Below, one piece after another: positions 3,832-13,154 of a stretch of DNA of 64,000 nucleotides (the first letter of the stretch is position 1; every line of letters begins with the position of its first letter). Location of the stretch: NCBI RefSeq assembly GCF_029633915.1, contig NZ_CP091092.1:1302001-1366000 (forward strand), read 5' to 3'. A model generated the notes under the pieces. That model saw only the letters and a list, made by a program, of their open reading frames with translations, ran no database searches and was not told the origin of the DNA. This DNA is from Methanomicrobium antiquum (GTDB lineage: Archaea > Halobacteriota > Methanomicrobia > Methanomicrobiales > Methanomicrobiaceae). A program made the position numbers and the translations under genes.

Positions 3832-5437
3832 CCTGACTTTGCCAGTGCAAAATAATAAGTGTGTTCTTAGTTAAGTTTGAATCGACAAAAATGCAGACAA
3901 AACTAAGAACTTATGAAATTGTGCCGAATGAAAATATATCCTTTCCTATTGGTACCATATCAGCAGTTGATAGATTATACAACATCCTGAATTTCTCTGA
4001 TATTATTGGAAAACATAAGCGCAATGGAATTGACATCAATAAATTAGTCAAAGCACTTGTTAGCTACAAGCTGAGTGAGAACTTCAGTATTAAAAAAGCT
4101 CATGAATGGATTAACAGGGACGAAGTTCTTGAAATATTTGATCTGGAATCATTTAGTGAAAGAACCCTTTACAGAGTACTTGAAGCAATTGGCGATAACA
4201 GGGAAGAAATCATATCAGATATTCAGGACGTTTTGTTTGAGAGATATAATTTTGAGCATACTGATATTAATCTGGATTGGACGAGCATTGTGCTTCATGG
4301 AAATGAAGCAAAACTAGGGAAATATGGTTACAGCCGGGATCACAGGCCTGATAAGAAGCAGATTACTGTTGGTGTGAGTGAACTTGCAGACCCGATTAAT
4401 ATTCCAATCGGCCTGACAATTGAACCTGGAAATACTAATGATCAGATTCATTTTTTGAAAACGTATTCACAGGTAGCATGGAAATTAAAATCAGATTCTC
4501 TTGTTATTTTTGATAAAGGAGCAAACAGCATTAAAAATGCTGCAATGATTCGGGCAGATAACATGCAGTACATAACTGCAAAGAAACTAAACAAAAGTGA
4601 TGATAGGATTATTGCAGAATTCTATTCATATAACCCTGAAGTAATAGATACTGAAAAGGGAGTTAAAGGAATTAAAATTATTAAACCTAACAGTATCAGT
4701 TATCTTTTCTTCTCAAAAAAGCTTCAGACTGAACAGCTTGAATCCAGAGCCAGAAAAGTCCTGAGGCAGATTAAAGAGGCAAAGGCAATACAGGAAAGCA
4801 TTGATAAACACAAAAAACTTCCAAAACGATTCCGGATTAACAATTTTTTAATAGAGGTAGATTATTCTATCCAGACAAAACTTGTTGATCTATCAGAAGA
4901 TGATGCGGTTAAACTGCTTGAAGAAAAGATAATAACTGGCAGGGAAGGATTTTTCTGCCTGAAATCAAGTAAGAATTTGACACTTTCTGAGGCTCTTTTG
5001 ACTTACCGAAAAAAAGATTCAATTGAGAAGATATTTCATTCACTGAAGAATGAAATTGAAATTAAACCGCTAAGAGTATGGACAGATAAAAGCATTTATG
5101 GAGCGTTAATCATAGGATTTATTGCCCAGTTGTTTGTTTCACTAATAAGATATGAAATACCTGAACTTAAGCATAAATCTACAAAATTCATCAAAAAATC
5201 ATTATCGAATTTGACAGTTACCATAGATTCATGGCAGCGAAAGACAAAAAAGTGCATTTACTCAAACTTTGATGCCATCAACACTCTGATTTTAAGGCTA
5301 AACTGGGCAGTTTCATAATTTGATGACGGAAAAATACTGAACTGTCAAATACGTTTTCCTGACAAAATTCTGAAAAAAAGTGATCAGGTATAGCTACCAG
5401 TCTGTTTATGGGTTTAGATCAAACTGGCAAACTTAGG
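3832..5437 (+). mobile_element. IS1634-like insertion sequence, copy 1
   Basis: The 1606-bp element has 16-bp imperfect terminal inverted repeats: left end CCTGACTTTGCCAGTG, right end (reverse complement) CCTAAGTTTGCCAGTT. It is flanked by an exact 6-bp target duplication TTATTG at 3826-3831 and 5438-5443. It carries one transposase gene. The same termini and gene order are found in a second copy at 57358-59018; the two transposases are clearly diverged, so neither is a very recent copy of the other. Element structure, single DDE gene and 6-bp duplication fit the IS1634/IS4 group. It interrupts a RelE-type toxin gene. Confidence 0.9.
3891..5318 (+). CDS. IS1634-like DDE transposase
   Basis: The 475-residue protein starts at ATG 3891 (MQTKLRTYE), matching the start of the second copy; a GTG at 3861 is an in-frame alternative. 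It has an N-terminal DUF4277-like region, then the catalytic pieces: the first aspartate in DWTSIVLHG followed by GYSRDHRPDKKQ, the second aspartate in VIFDKGANS, and the glutamate in YRKKDSIEKIFHSLKNEIE near residue 395. These are the D-D-E residues of IS4/IS1634-type cut-and-paste transposases with an inserted domain. The frame is intact, so the enzyme may be active. Family identification is strong; the exact IS name needs ISfinder. Confidence 0.9.
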   Translation: MQTKLRTYEIVPNENISFPIGTISAVDRLYNILNFSDIIGKHKRNGIDINKLVKALVSYKLSENFSIKKAHEWINRDEVLEIFDLESFSERTLYRVLEAIGDNREEIISDIQDVLFERYNFEHTDINLDWTSIVLHGNEAKLGKYGYSRDHRPDKKQITVGVSELADPINIPIGLTIEPGNTNDQIHFLKTYSQVAWKLKSDSLVIFDKGANSIKNAAMIRADNMQYITAKKLNKSDDRIIAEFYSYNPEVIDTEKGVKGIKIIKPNSISYLFFSKKLQTEQLESRARKVLRQIKEAKAIQESIDKHKKLPKRFRINNFLIEVDYSIQTKLVDLSEDDAVKLLEEKIITGREGFFCLKSSKNLTLSEALLTYRKKDSIEKIFHSLKNEIEIKPLRVWTDKSIYGALIIGFIAQLFVSLIRYEIPELKHKSTKFIKKSLSNLTVTIDSWQRKTKKCIYSNFDAINTLILRLNWAVS

Positions 5438-5657
5438 TTATTGATAAAATAAAAAAATGTCTTCAAGAATATTTGTTTGTCAATGTAAATTCTTGCAATA
5501 AACATGAGTTAAAAGGCAATTGTAAAGGTTATTGGCGTTTACATATTCCACATAACCATGTCGTGATTTATGCTATTGAAGGAACTAAACCAAACAGATC
5601 TGCAACAGTTCTTAAGATTATGACTGAAAAAGAGTATCACAATTGGATTAAGTCTTG

Positions 5658-5852
5658 TTAGAGACCTAATCTTTTTTCAACGACTGAAAGCTTAGAACCA
5701 GGCTCTTTCCTTAATCTTTCCAGCTCCTCGACGGCGGCACATTTTTTGACCGGTTTTAATTCCCGCTCTAAAGTCTTGCTTATTGATTCCCTGCCTTTTT
5801 TGCGGGAAAGTATTTCATTGTATATTGAATCTGAGATCTTTATTTCCTGCAT
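5658..5852 (-). CDS. Small antitoxin-like protein
   Basis: The 64-residue protein (MQEIKISDSIYNEILSRKKG..., ending ELERLRKEPG and VVEKRLGL) resembles VapB/RHH-type archaeal antitoxins: a short N-terminal beta strand and helix followed by a charged tail that would bind a toxin. The ATG at 5852 is preferred because the longer frame to 5981 runs back over the end of the neighbouring integrase remnant. Its stop overlaps the stop of the disrupted RelE-type gene by three bases in a tail-to-tail arrangement, so it is not the usual antitoxin partner of that gene. No PIN-domain toxin is adjacent. Function is inferred from shape only. Confidence 0.45.
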   Translation of the reverse strand: MQEIKISDSIYNEILSRKKGRESISKTLERELKPVKKCAAVEELERLRKEPGSKLSVVEKRLGL

Positions 5853-5977
5853 GTATATCTTATCTGTTATCTGAAAAGAAATAATTTTTGTGGTAGCTAC
5901 AATTTTTCCTTTTAAGGATAAAATTTTCAGCTGATGGGCAAGGGCCTTTAGTCGCATAAGACAAACAAAGTTTTGTA

Positions 5978-6789
5978 TCATTTAACCTTTAAAACCTGAA
6001 ATTCTTTTTTAGCGCTTAAAAAGTTTTGATATTCTGCATAAAATTCTTGAAACTCAGGATTTTCATTAATATAATCAATTGCCTCATTGATTTTTTTATT
6101 TGTTCCCAATTCATCTTCTTTTGTTAGAGGAAAGCCGCATTTAGAACAGAATACAGAATCCGGTGCATTGATATAATGACAATGACCACAGGCGATAACC
6201 GTTAAAGGATTTCTCTTTATGCTTTCTTTCTCTTTAATGCCTGCCCTTGCTAAAAATTCATGGTCTATATCTGTTTCAGACAAAGAAACATATGTTGCAA
6301 ACATTTCTGTATTGAGATTTCCCCACATTGATTTTTTTATAATTGATTCCTGGTAATTTTGCTGTATCAGATGTGTAATTCTGCTATGTCTGAAAATATG
6401 AGGATTCACATTTTTTTTAATGCCCGCTCTTTCTCCAAGTCTTTGAAGAATCCTTACAACAGCATCATATTTTATTGCTGTATAATCATGAAAGTCTGTA
6501 AAAACCGGCATTTCATCATTTAATTTTTTGGTGTAATTCCTTTTCCAGTTTGCCAGATATTCAACAGACATTGTTAAGCGGCTATATCTGTATTTTTTTG
6601 TTTTCTGGTCGTCAATATACAGTTTTGCTCCCAAATCATCAAAGACAATATCTTTCCACCTGAAGCGGCCAAGTTCACCGACTCTTACACCTGATTTATA
6701 TAATACCGTAATCAAAGCACGATCACGCGAATTAAACCACAATCAGCCTTTGTTAAGATGTTCTTTTCAAAAACACTTCGTATTGTTTT
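5978..6789 (-). pseudogene. Tyrosine integrase, truncated and frameshifted
   Basis: The main frame holds the catalytic domain of a tyrosine recombinase: the first arginine in SGVRVGELGRFRW, the H-x-x-R box in NPHIFRHSRITHL, a following histidine position replaced in SMWGNLN, and the nucleophile in FATYVSLS. A zinc ribbon follows (CGHCHYINAPDSVFCSKCG) before the C-terminal helix. Upstream of 6742 the frame is broken; in the next frame the sequence continues as SVFEKNILTKADC, part of the linker before the catalytic domain, but the core-binding domain is missing. The gene sits 190 bp from the 3' end of a tRNA-Met gene, as expected for an integrated element. It is probably inactive. Confidence 0.7.
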
Positions 6790-7214: not shown

Positions 7215-8930
7215 TCATAATTTAAAATCACTATTCAGTTCAGCTTCAAGTTCCCCGGAAACATTTTTTAGAATCTCTTTTCTTTTTGAGTCAGATATAT
7301 TCTTTTCAGCTAAATTAAGCATTTTTAACCCCCGTTCACCACTTTTAAAAATGCCTCTCTTCGCTTCAGAACAAACCTCAGGGCTTTCATCAAAAAGAGC
7401 TGCTATTAATTCTAAAAGAGCCTTTTGAGAGTTAATATCTGAGAGGACCCTTACTGCATTAAGCCTTTTATTTGGATTTTTGCTCTTCATCAAAACCTTA
7501 AGGGCACCTAAAGCATTCTGCCCCTCATGTTTTAAGCCGGTCCAGTTTTCATTCACAATATACTTTTTAATCCTTTCATTCTGCTCAATTCTCATTATTA
7601 TCCAATCAACAGCATCTGCATCTTTTAAATCCGACATACTTTCATATTTTTTTTGCAGTTCTAAAAGTGCGCTCTCTCCGGACTTTATAAGATATGCTTT
7701 TGCAATATCAGACACAACACTGCTCTTATCAAAAAGAGCCTCAATTAAAAAGGGCACAGATTCAGGTGCATTTATCTTTCCAATAGTTCTTACAGCATTA
7801 ACTTTAATGTCCTGACTAATGTCTTCACCATTATCAGACAATAAATCGGACAGATAAGCAACAGCACCTGCACCTTTTCTTTCAAGCGCATCCCATTTCC
7901 CGTCTGCAATGAATGATTTAATCTGTTCTTTTTCCTCAATTTCAAAGATAATTTCATCAAGAATCTTTTTTTCGGATTCATCATCAGAATTATTGGATAT
8001 TTTTCTTAACTGCGGCAAAACAAAAGATCCTTTATTCATTAAAGCCTCTTGTGATTCAAGCGCAATTTCATCATCCATATCAAAAAGAGCAAAAGCAAGA
8101 GACTTTATTGATTTCTCACTGTTAATTTTGATTATACACCTTAAGGCATCCTTTCGTTTTACAGAAAATAAATCACCCAAAATCTCTTCAAGCGGTCTAA
8201 GTGCTGTTTCACCATCATCCAAAACTTTATCCCAGTCGTTTTTTGCGATATGGAAATATACAAGATCGGTTTTTTCTTTTGGAACAACGCCTGCCTGTTC
8301 AAGACACCTTGCCGCAGTCTCCTTGTATGAATCTTTCTTATCACTTTTTAAAGCCTCAATTAGAGGTTTTGAGGCGCTCTTTCCATAAGCCTTTACTGCC
8401 AAAACTGAGGCCTCACGGATATTTTCCTCAGGGTCTTCAAAAAGGGATATAAAAACATCAATAGCTCTTTTATCATTTAAACCGGAAAGGCCCTTTACTG
8501 CTTCAAAACGCACTTCCGGGTTTTTGTCAAGAATTGCATAATTTAATATGTCAAATACTCTCTTATCAGAAGTCTTTGTAAAAGACTTAACAAAGATTTT
8601 TTTAACCTCAGAGTCTTTTTCGGTGTATATCCTGTCATAAAGAGCATTAACTCCTTCTTTATCATCAATTTCAGCAATCTTTTCGGCAGACAAAATTTTA
8701 AGATCAGAACTTCCGTAATTTAAAAGTCTGATAAGACCACGAATTCCGGGTCTGCCGATTTTAATTAAAATATCAGCAATAATATCCCTAAATGCCCTGT
8801 CAGCATTTCCAAGATAGCTTATTAAAGGTTCAACTGCAGGATCACCAATCTTTACAATTTTTCCAAAGTTCTTCTTCCTCTCAGTCTTATCATCACTTTT
8901 AAGGCCGACAATAAGCCTCGACACCTCCAT
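7215..8930 (-). CDS. HEAT-repeat protein (probably the 3' half of a larger gene)
   Basis: The 571-residue protein is built of HEAT/PBS-lyase-type repeats, such as DPAVEPLISYLGNADRAFRD, KNPEVRFEAVKGLSGL and SVPFLIEALFDKSSVV. Such alpha-solenoids act as protein interaction scaffolds; no catalytic domain is seen. The first 26 codons overlap the end of the upstream HEAT gene in another frame. No ribosome binding site precedes ATG 8930, and the frame reads sensibly upstream of it (ELELKKKIA) to a TAA at a run of five A near 8958-8962. Together this suggests that both genes are one protein of about 1,390 residues joined by a -1 shift or split by loss of one base. Confidence 0.7.
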   Translation of the reverse strand: MEVSRLIVGLKSDDKTERKKNFGKIVKIGDPAVEPLISYLGNADRAFRDIIADILIKIGRPGIRGLIRLLNYGSSDLKILSAEKIAEIDDKEGVNALYDRIYTEKDSEVKKIFVKSFTKTSDKRVFDILNYAILDKNPEVRFEAVKGLSGLNDKRAIDVFISLFEDPEENIREASVLAVKAYGKSASKPLIEALKSDKKDSYKETAARCLEQAGVVPKEKTDLVYFHIAKNDWDKVLDDGETALRPLEEILGDLFSVKRKDALRCIIKINSEKSIKSLAFALFDMDDEIALESQEALMNKGSFVLPQLRKISNNSDDESEKKILDEIIFEIEEKEQIKSFIADGKWDALERKGAGAVAYLSDLLSDNGEDISQDIKVNAVRTIGKINAPESVPFLIEALFDKSSVVSDIAKAYLIKSGESALLELQKKYESMSDLKDADAVDWIIMRIEQNERIKKYIVNENWTGLKHEGQNALGALKVLMKSKNPNKRLNAVRVLSDINSQKALLELIAALFDESPEVCSEAKRGIFKSGERGLKMLNLAEKNISDSKRKEILKNVSGELEAELNSDFKL

Positions 8931-11356
8931 TGCAATCTTCTTTTTAAGCTCAAGTTCTTTTTAATGATATCATCAATTTCATTTTGAGTAAGCTGTTTTT
9001 TAATATCCTTTGCGACTTTCTCCTCCTTATCAGAAGATGCATGATTGATTAAAGAATCAATTTCATCCTGTGTAAGCTTTTTTCCAAGAAGCTGGGTTGT
9101 CTTTTTGTTTTCAACATAAACAGATTTATGTAAAAGCTCATCAATCTCTGCCTGTGACAGCTTTTTGCCAAGCAGTTTTGAAGTATCCTGCCCGCGGGCT
9201 GATCTTGAATTTCTGATTAACTCATCAATCTCTTTTTGATCTAACTTTTTATTTAATAATCCAAGTGCATCAGTGTCATTTGCATTAAGAATTCTGTCCA
9301 AAAGCCTGTCTATTTCATAAAGACTTAATTTTCTTCTTAAAAGCTCGGCTGTTTCATGACTATATTCACGAATTTTCTCCCGCCCTTTTTCTATCGTTCT
9401 TTCAGTGAATATATCAAGAACAGTCCTTGCATTTCTTACAATCTCCTCATCTTCGTCTGACAGAAATTCTTTTACAAACGGAACAATCTTCATATCCTTC
9501 GTTTTTGAAAGAACACTTAGCATACCAAGTTTTTCCATTTTTGTTCCCTGAATACTTACGCGATGAACCTCCATCATCAAAAAATTGAACATAAAATTTG
9601 TGAATTTTAAAAGTGCGGTCATGGACTCATTTCTGACTGCCTCGGAAGTGTCATTAAGCGACCTTGTCGCATATGGAATGCCGGATGGATCACTAATCTC
9701 TCCCAGTGCAGTTAAACAGGATATTCTTACCAATTCATTTGGATGAAAAATCATATTCTGAATATGAGGAATGGCCTGATTACCCATTTTTGCAACCGCA
9801 TCAGCGGATTCAAATCTTACATTTGCATCAGGGTCTGAAAAATGCCGGACCAAAACAGGAATTGTTGTTGCATCCCTGAGCTTTCCAAGTGAATAGGCAC
9901 AAGCACGCCTGATTAATTCATCTTCATCCTCTATCTTTTCAGTTAACTTTGAAACTGCATTTCTCTCGTATATCTCACCAAGTGCCTCTATTGCGGCTAT
10001 ACGAATACTTTCATTCTCATCATCGGTTAAAAGCAGAAAAATATCTGAGGATTTCCTTCCAAATTTTTTCAGACTGTCAATTGCAACCACTCTTACTACT
10101 GAATCCGTATTAGAAAGGGCTTTTGAGAAAACTTCAGCCATATCCAAACCAAATGATGACAATAAAAGTTTTTCTTTCCAGTAATCGGGAGAGTTTAATT
10201 CATAATTGCTTTTATCTCCATTTAAAAATTCATCTCCATTTTTCTCTTCACTCTTTGCCTTTTCTTCCCTGATATATGTCAGTGCCTCATATGCACCATT
10301 TCGAATTGCTTCATCTTTGTCCTTTGAAGCATTTTTTATAGCATCTATACCCGGCTCTCCAAGAGAATATAATAGTTTAAAAGCATTTTCACGTCTTTCG
10401 AAGAAATCATCACCAAGAAATTCAATTAAAGAGGGAATTGCCTTTTCGCCCAGCCTTTCAACTTCCCTGTAATTTCCGCGAAGCATCAGGGAAAATATTT
10501 TTTCAGTGTATTTTTGCGGTTTCCAGCCTGCTTTTTCAAGTGACCAGGCGGCTTCAACCCTTACATCAGGGTCAGGGTCATTCATGCACTGAACAAGAAC
10601 CGGATATAATGAAACTGCTCTTTTTTCTGCAATTGCTGATATGGCAGAAAGTCTGACACTGCTGTTTTTATCATTTAGGAGATGCATTAAAAGCGGTATT
10701 GTGCTCTCTCCCTCAATTTTGGCAAGAACAGAAGCTATTTTTGACTTCATGTCAGAATCTGCAATTTCTATTCCAAATTTGAGCGCTGGAACTGCAAAAG
10801 GCCCCAGTTTTCCAATTGCAGTCCAGTCTTCTTTTACCAGATAATAAAATGCCATCTCAGCATTGTTTGACGATTTCCAATTTACTGCATCCAGTGATTT
10901 TACAGCCTGTTCACGAACTTCTTTATCGGTGTCATTAAGAAGATTAAGAAGAATAACAGATGAATTTTTATCATTTCTGCCAATGTATTCCAATGCAAGA
11001 GCAACACCCAGCTTTGATTTTTTATTGTTGTCTCTGGCCAAAGCAGTCAGTGATTCATAAACAGGAACTCCCTGTCTTGCCATATGCCCGATGGTTCTTG
11101 CGGCTCCGTCTTTTGCGTTGTCACTGCCGGATTTTAGGAGATTTAAAAAAGTATTCAGACTTTCTTTGTTTTCTTTACTAATTGAGCCAAGTACTTCAGC
11201 CGCTCCTGCACGAACCTGTTCGCTACTGCTATTAAGAGCTTTTAGAAGCGGAACTGATGCTTTGTTTCCAGCCTGTTTAAGTTTTTTTATCGCCTCATTT
11301 CTTTCTTTTTTGCCGGAAGAATTAAGAGATGAGATTAAAAAATCAATTTCTTCCAC
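8852..11356 (-). CDS. Large HEAT-repeat protein with five FliM-like EID motifs
   Basis: The 834-residue protein starts MEEIDFLISSL and contains many HEAT repeats (for example DPDPDVRVEAAWSLEKAGW and DPDANVRFESADAVAKMG) through about residue 660. From about residue 670 to 800 it carries five copies, spaced about 31 residues, of a motif of the form LL-x-KKL-S/T-Q-x-EID-x-L-I/L, very like the N-terminal peptide LSQxEIDALL of bacterial FliM. The last 34 residues after KKN are basic and unlike the rest, and the neighbouring frame carries the natural continuation, so the end is probably a frameshift product. Role unknown; a scaffold that gathers several copies of one partner protein is a reasonable inference. 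Confidence 0.7.
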   Translation of the reverse strand: MEEIDFLISSLNSSGKKERNEAIKKLKQAGNKASVPLLKALNSSSEQVRAGAAEVLGSISKENKESLNTFLNLLKSGSDNAKDGAARTIGHMARQGVPVYESLTALARDNNKKSKLGVALALEYIGRNDKNSSVILLNLLNDTDKEVREQAVKSLDAVNWKSSNNAEMAFYYLVKEDWTAIGKLGPFAVPALKFGIEIADSDMKSKIASVLAKIEGESTIPLLMHLLNDKNSSVRLSAISAIAEKRAVSLYPVLVQCMNDPDPDVRVEAAWSLEKAGWKPQKYTEKIFSLMLRGNYREVERLGEKAIPSLIEFLGDDFFERRENAFKLLYSLGEPGIDAIKNASKDKDEAIRNGAYEALTYIREEKAKSEEKNGDEFLNGDKSNYELNSPDYWKEKLLLSSFGLDMAEVFSKALSNTDSVVRVVAIDSLKKFGRKSSDIFLLLTDDENESIRIAAIEALGEIYERNAVSKLTEKIEDEDELIRRACAYSLGKLRDATTIPVLVRHFSDPDANVRFESADAVAKMGNQAIPHIQNMIFHPNELVRISCLTALGEISDPSGIPYATRSLNDTSEAVRNESMTALLKFTNFMFNFLMMEVHRVSIQGTKMEKLGMLSVLSKTKDMKIVPFVKEFLSDEDEEIVRNARTVLDIFTERTIEKGREKIREYSHETAELLRRKLSLYEIDRLLDRILNANDTDALGLLNKKLDQKEIDELIRNSRSARGQDTSKLLGKKLSQAEIDELLHKSVYVENKKTTQLLGKKLTQDEIDSLINHASSDKEEKVAKDIKKQLTQNEIDDIIKKNLSLKRRLQWRCRGLLSALKVMIRLRGRRTLEKL

Positions 11357-12146: not shown

Positions 12147-13154
12147 TTACATTCCAATGTATTTACTTGGAACTTTTATCTCAATCTTATAGGACTTGAG
12201 CATATTTGGATTGATAATAAAGTAATAATTTCCTGAACCCTCATAGAACCTGTGCTTCCAGATGTATTCGTTTAGGTTTTCACGTGATATTACATCTTCA
12301 TCCAAAACCAATTCTTTTTCTGTTCCAAATTCAACATCTTCAGGTTCATCCTCACTAAGACCTCCTGTTACAGGCAGGACTTTGGGAATCGGCCCTTCAG
12401 TTCTGGAATTTAAGATATATATAAGGCCACTTGGTTTATCGGCATCCATCACCTGGATATTTATCGAAGGAACAATATAATACTGATTTTCAACATCAAC
12501 TCCAGTGCTTTCACCCTGACTTGAGACAATTCCTTCAACATCTCCACCGCCTCCGTCACTTCCATAAAGCTCTTCTGCACGCTTCAGTGCTTTAAGACCC
12601 TCATTATATTCCTGAAGAGAGATTAGTCCGATATTGTACCGGTTTTTAAGATCATCCATCGCGGCTGTGTAGTTATAGCTTGGCTCAGAATCAGTTCCGC
12701 CAACATCACCAATACTCTCAAGACTTACCTCTATTTCCCAATACGGGAATGGAATATTGATAACCTGTGTCGTAGCATCCCACTGCCCGTCTATTACTGC
12801 ATAAGTTGTAAAGGAATTATCTTCTGCCTCTTCATATCCGGGCATTCTGAATCCATAATCCTTCAACTCCGGTGACCACTGTATGTTGTATGTGGATGGA
12901 TCAACAAATAAGACATTTTTTGGAGAGCCGTCCCATGCAGGAGTTGGCTGTGGAGTGGCAGATGATTTTGATAAAACCGGCGAATAAGGTGCAACAGGTG
13001 CTCCGGATGGCACAGGTATATTTGATATTGTATCTGGTTTTGATTCCGGAAGAATTGCAACAGTCTCTCCGTTAAGAATTGGTTTTACAACAACTGCAAG
13101 AATAATAACGATAGCAACTGCTGCAATGAAGAATATGAGATCCTGTTTTTGCAT
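12147..13154 (-). CDS. Membrane-anchored extracellular protein
   Basis: The 335-residue protein begins with a short cytoplasmic head and one membrane segment (IFFIAAVAIVIILAVVV, residues about 8-25), then a Pro/Ser/Thr-rich linker (residues about 40-75) and a large acidic outer domain with aromatic and beta-rich character and a poly-Gly stretch (DGGGGDVEG). It therefore looks anchored in the membrane and facing the outside. I recognise no catalytic motif. No operon partner is close: 280 bp separate it from nrdD, and 616 bp including a MITE from the HEAT gene. Confidence 0.6.
   Translation of the reverse strand: MQKQDLIFFIAAVAIVIILAVVVKPILNGETVAILPESKPDTISNIPVPSGAPVAPYSPVLSKSSATPQPTPAWDGSPKNVLFVDPSTYNIQWSPELKDYGFRMPGYEEAEDNSFTTYAVIDGQWDATTQVINIPFPYWEIEVSLESIGDVGGTDSEPSYNYTAAMDDLKNRYNIGLISLQEYNEGLKALKRAEELYGSDGGGGDVEGIVSSQGESTGVDVENQYYIVPSINIQVMDADKPSGLIYILNSRTEGPIPKVLPVTGGLSEDEPEDVEFGTEKELVLDEDVISRENLNEYIWKHRFYEGSGNYYFIINPNMLKSYKIEIKVPSKYIGM

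Follow-up and report, generated by a model that had tools for sequence, protein, structure and literature searches.

What might an archaeal protein bind through five tandem copies of a segment resembling the CheY-binding peptide of bacterial FliM, and do these copies form a functional array at all? The question is raised by a minus-strand gene of Methanomicrobium antiquum in the window, the whole stretch of 64,000 nucleotides that was analysed. Five EID segments within a HEAT-repeat protein had been reported in a first-pass annotation, and their letters and coordinates in the minus-strand ORF 8852–11356 are right; with the preceding residue they read KLSLYEIDRLL, KLDQKEIDELI, KLSQAEIDELL, KLTQDEIDSLI and QLTQNEIDDII. 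The spacing, given there as about 31 residues, is instead exactly 28 residues when counted from the core starts, a period that holds in eight genomes except for one gap of 27 in two relatives. An LL-x-KK stretch said to precede each motif is present in four units (LLRRK, LLNKK, LLGKK, LLGKK) but not in the last, which has DIKKQ. The consensus core of the unit is ten residues long, L-[ST]-Q-x-E-I-D-x-L-[IL], and the features are as follows.

8852..11356, minus strand: 5' part of the EID-array gene, encoding the N-terminal HEAT block (amino acids 1 to ~650) and the array; 834 amino acids
7215..8930, minus strand: 3' part of the same gene, encoding the C-terminal HEAT block; a separate ORF of 571 amino acids
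8948..9388, minus strand: EID array of five units with a period of 28 amino acids, between the two HEAT blocks
9299..9328, minus strand: motif 1, LSLYEIDRLL, core from amino acid 677
9215..9244, minus strand: motif 2, LDQKEIDELI, core from amino acid 705
9131..9160, minus strand: motif 3, LSQAEIDELL, core from amino acid 733
9047..9076, minus strand: motif 4, LTQDEIDSLI, core from amino acid 761
8963..8992, minus strand: motif 5, LTQNEIDDII, core from amino acid 789
8956..8957, minus strand: one-base deletion, after 8957, by DNA comparison with seven relatives

The interrupted gene and its locus

Both flanking blocks score above cut-off with HEAT models (PF13646/PF03130) and have alphaRep/HEAT proteins as their top structural matches, ORF 8852–11356 matching HEAT_2 at E = 5.6e-68 and ORF 7215–8930 at E = 1.4e-36. 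The latter is joined to the array ORF in all seven relatives, where the intact homologue is a single ORF of 1,368–1,423 amino acids in the order HEAT block, array, HEAT block. Because one base is missing from the sequence analysed here, the last ~27 codons of ORF 8852–11356 are out of frame and the C-terminal block appears as an ORF of its own; the deletion is either a mutation or a sequencing error, and the gene may be broken in the sequenced strain. Programmed frameshifting at AAAAAG was considered and rejected: a −1 slip would bring translation back into frame, but no frameshift occurs in the relatives, so that a deletion or sequencing error is the simpler explanation.

A DDE transposase gene (3861–5318) and a gene for a zinc-ribbon phage-type integrase (5978–6742) lie just downstream, marking window positions 3861–6742 as a stretch rich in mobile elements. 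On the other side, positions 12147–13154 encode a protein of 335 residues, next to an anaerobic ribonucleotide reductase, that matches no Pfam family and has a hydrophobic stretch near its N-terminus; in three genomes of the genus (the window, L039 and L040) its gene is the immediate upstream neighbour of the array gene. Neither operon nor neighbours of the array gene gave any hint of a partner.

Distribution and conservation of the array

Array-bearing genomes number eight and are confined to three genera of a single family, the Methanomicrobiaceae. A concern at the outset was that such motif repeats might be common in unrelated proteins; when the order was searched with the strict motif pattern (40 genomes), the array protein of each of the eight array genomes was hit and only one other place, with no match for the reversed control. 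A profile of the unit detected no array outside the three genera at E ≤ 1e-4 among 394 genomes of the phylum, the sole additional match among 150 genomes of the order was marginal (E = 0.09), and a contig search for further arrays returned only two MAG contigs, the same as G019 and G004. Diverged paralogues of the N-terminal HEAT block are widespread, but the array is not. Chance was rejected as the origin of the array, since at least two strict motifs occurred in none of 20,000 shuffles of the segment, in addition to the zero matches of the reversed pattern noted above.

Recent tandem duplication or slippage was likewise rejected, the units being diverged from one another and orthologous by position. 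A unit in one position is 53–83% identical across species, whereas differing units share only 25–47%, which indicates that the five units are older than the three genera and that each has been kept in its own form. Over 40 units, the core positions are occupied by L in 39, S/T in 33, Q in 32, E in 39, I in 38 and D in 36, and the core ends in L/I (40) followed by I/L (39); at motif 5, AKDIKKQLTQNEID is without variation across the eight genomes. Pairwise identities are 70% for the array, 55% for the N-terminal block and 43% for the C-terminal block, and in diverged pairs dN is roughly twofold lower in the array than in the N-terminal HEAT block (0.18 vs 0.31, 0.10 vs 0.22 and 0.26 vs 0.44). 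The array is thus real, selected and lineage-specific.

Fold of the array and its likeness to FliM

The array is not made of HEAT repeats as defined by PF13646/PF03130: at E-values up to 10, no HEAT model appears among the families matched by the representative array or among the 25 families listed for the eight arrays, and when the array profile is compared with those of the two HEAT blocks the probability is 0.2% or less. In an AlphaFold2 model of 440 residues the HEAT flanks mostly reach pLDDT 72–93 and the array only 26–41, while two units modelled alone adopt a helix-turn-helix-loop arrangement twice over (pLDDT 55–77, pTM 0.29, packing not confident). These models were built on shallow alignments of 8 and 16 sequences, respectively, and a low-confidence array is therefore not necessarily a disordered one; on the same shallow alignments, burial of the EID residues in a regular repeat fold, which had been named beforehand as an outcome that would count against docking, is not predicted. 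A worn continuation of the solenoid, with the EID helix as helix 1 of each degenerate HEAT unit, draws on an LG-x-x-x-S/D-x-x-x-I-x-x-L-I register that looks HEAT_PBS-like by eye and on the alternation of helices; given the profile comparison, the silence of the HEAT models and flanks that model well where the array does not, this reading was dismissed as very improbable.

Resemblance to the FliM peptide is real, as determined by comparison with nine bacterial FliM N-termini, which read L/M-S/D-Q-x-E-I/V-D-x-L-L/V; motif 3 and the E. coli FliM sequence LSQAEIDALL agree at all but one of their ten residues, and the LSQxEIDxLL core pattern of the FliM model TIGR01397 is matched by units 2–5, unit 1 lacking the Q. 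Of 18,950 NCBIfam models used in a scan of the arrays, FliM (best E = 1.7e-4) and likewise FliY (best E = 4.1e-5) were matched by all eight, every match lying below cut-off and a Plasmodium domain obtaining a lower E-value than either. The representative array aligns to positions 2–30 of the FliM model and 3–42 of the FliY model, in each case the model N-terminus. Shared with FliM and FliY, then, are the ten-residue core L-S/T-Q-x-E-I-D-x-L-L/I, an S/T-capped helix and strong conservation of the motif residues. The differences concern context: FliM and FliY carry one N-terminal copy, whereas the array protein has five internal ones, without the middle CheC-like or the C-terminal domain of FliM and in an archaeon without FliM. 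No full-length FliM (TIGR01397) scores above cut-off in the eight array genomes, in agreement, for these eight, with the earlier statement that Archaea lack FliM. The residue preceding the core also differs, being K/R/Q in 40 of 40 array units vs hydrophobic or T in the nine FliMs.

The motif L-S/T-x-x-E-I/L is the usual capping box with a hydrophobic staple at the start of a helix, and the same core occurs in unrelated proteins, including the DnaK encoded in this genome (LSEDEIDEMIKK), calmodulin (LGEKLTDEEVDEMI) and the essential light chain of myosin (KLSQDEIDDL). In a serious rival reading, somewhat less likely than docking, the units would be short helical hairpins that pack on one another or on the HEAT blocks and fix how far apart the two solenoids lie, with the likeness to FliM a convergence. 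The regular period in eight genomes and the helix-turn-helix form of the two-unit model accord with such a structural repeat, as do these unrelated cores, but a capping box requires neither the Q at position 3 nor the D that follows I, which are nevertheless kept in 32 and 36, respectively, of the 40 units, the array varies less than the HEAT fold around it, and no packing is predicted.

Candidate partners

Low dN, the lack of HEAT similarity and of a predicted solenoid, and the rarity of the motif support a selected, flexible, multivalent docking segment between HEAT solenoids. We infer docking, multivalency and partner alike, and judge the chance of this preferred reading to be close to even. 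The gene product would be a cytoplasmic scaffold of ~1,400 residues arranged as HEAT solenoid, hinge and HEAT solenoid, in which the hinge would have become, in the three genera, an array composed of five helix-turn-helix units of 28 residues. Each unit would display a short amphipathic helix, with L-S/T-Q-x-E-I-D as its cap, that could hold one partner molecule, and the HEAT blocks might hold other cargo or provide an anchor. The most likely class of partner would be a receiver domain, CheY or another of those encoded in the genome, accommodated in the α4-β5-α5 groove in the manner of FliM–CheY; CheY or another receiver is the leading candidate, and only a candidate.

Gathering of several CheY-like or other response-regulator molecules, as the first-pass annotation had proposed, is thus partly upheld: it is favoured by the likeness to FliM, by conservation and by motifs that are predicted not to be buried, and disfavoured by the unlinked che and archaellum genes, by genomes that have the chemotaxis components and no array, and by a helix-cap core that unrelated proteins share. 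A specific form of the docking reading, in which the units bind phosphorylated chemotaxis CheY in the FliM groove and so gather or buffer it, is unlikely. In its favour, the core pattern of the units is identical to that of FliM, and the CheY of this genome shows 57% identity across 115 residues with T. maritima CheY (PDB 4IGA), the one co-crystallised with the FliM peptide, which also speaks for receiver gathering in general; genes for CheF and for CheY, CheB, CheA, CheC and CheD, so named from sequence, are clustered with the archaellum genes, and CheF and CheW are confirmed by models. Against it, 11 of 19 tested genomes have CheF, CheW and receiver domains but no array; within this genus G002, G003 and G005 lack it and possess CheF, CheW and a receiver adjoining cheF; and the array gene lies outside the che region. 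A further difficulty, for receiver gathering as well, is that the genome's CheY, when aligned to the E. coli sequence, has Glu at the Lys119 position, which would give a Glu–Asp pair. T. maritima CheY has no Lys there either. In E. coli, a salt bridge joins CheY Lys119 to FliM Asp12 (PMC7012829).

The FliM peptide sits between α4 and α5 of CheY, whereas the site occupied by archaeal CheF is close to that of phosphorylation (PMC9126983, whose reference list gives, as reference 25, a co-crystal structure of T. maritima CheY with the FliM peptide). Since CheF sits there, the FliM groove would be free. A bolder extension, which we regard as rather improbable, is a response-regulator 'comb': a HEAT scaffold with five FliM-like helices, evolved apart from FliM, that would hold several CheY-type receivers in the CheF-free groove and so couple or buffer chemotaxis and other two-component signals.

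Receiver domains number 25–46 in array genomes vs 5–27 in those without (p = 0.0009; per Mb p = 0.0008), a contrast that tracks genome size and amounts phylogenetically to roughly one or two events. The genome analysed here has 25 in all; within the genus, the larger genomes G000, G001 and G004 combine 25–38 receivers with the array, and the small G002, G003 and G005 have 5 and no array. Because the genomes are related and the receiver-poor ones small, the difference is weak evidence.

If the array binds receivers, it would be, to our knowledge, the first archaeal example of a FliM-type peptide for docking CheY, in the form of a multivalent comb, and it would raise afresh the question of how archaea share CheY among the motor, through CheF, and other outputs. 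If it does not, it serves as a warning that the LSQxEIDxLL pattern alone is no proof of CheY binding.

A documented link of a HEAT scaffold to CheD and CheF comes from another archaeal HEAT-repeat protein, Halobacterium OE2401F (HEAT_PBS), which binds CheD and a CheF protein and whose loss abolishes switching (PMC2666748). The same study left open whether, in other archaea, HEAT proteins with genes outside che regions take part in taxis, a question on which the array bears. OE2401F differs in that its gene has che genes on one side and archaellum genes on the other and in that nothing but HEAT-like repeats was detected in the protein, whereas the array gene has no che or archaellum genes near it, being located at 1.31 Mb and not in the che/archaellum region beside cheF (1.43 Mb). 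Orthology of the two proteins cannot be shown from HEAT repeats.

Closer at hand is a paralogue of 1,022–1,083 amino acids (G000:C1:1629362 and syntenic copies), which like the array protein has two HEAT blocks, with 34–37% identity in the N-terminal block, but has a short unrelated linker at the place of the array. It is encoded beside a peptidase-like gene and not at the array-gene locus; the paralogue is conserved, lying at 5309–8422 of L046 and at the syntenic loci L047–L052, the adjoining peptidase-like gene product starts with 'ELLAPAGS', and the arrangement occupies the same place in seven genomes.
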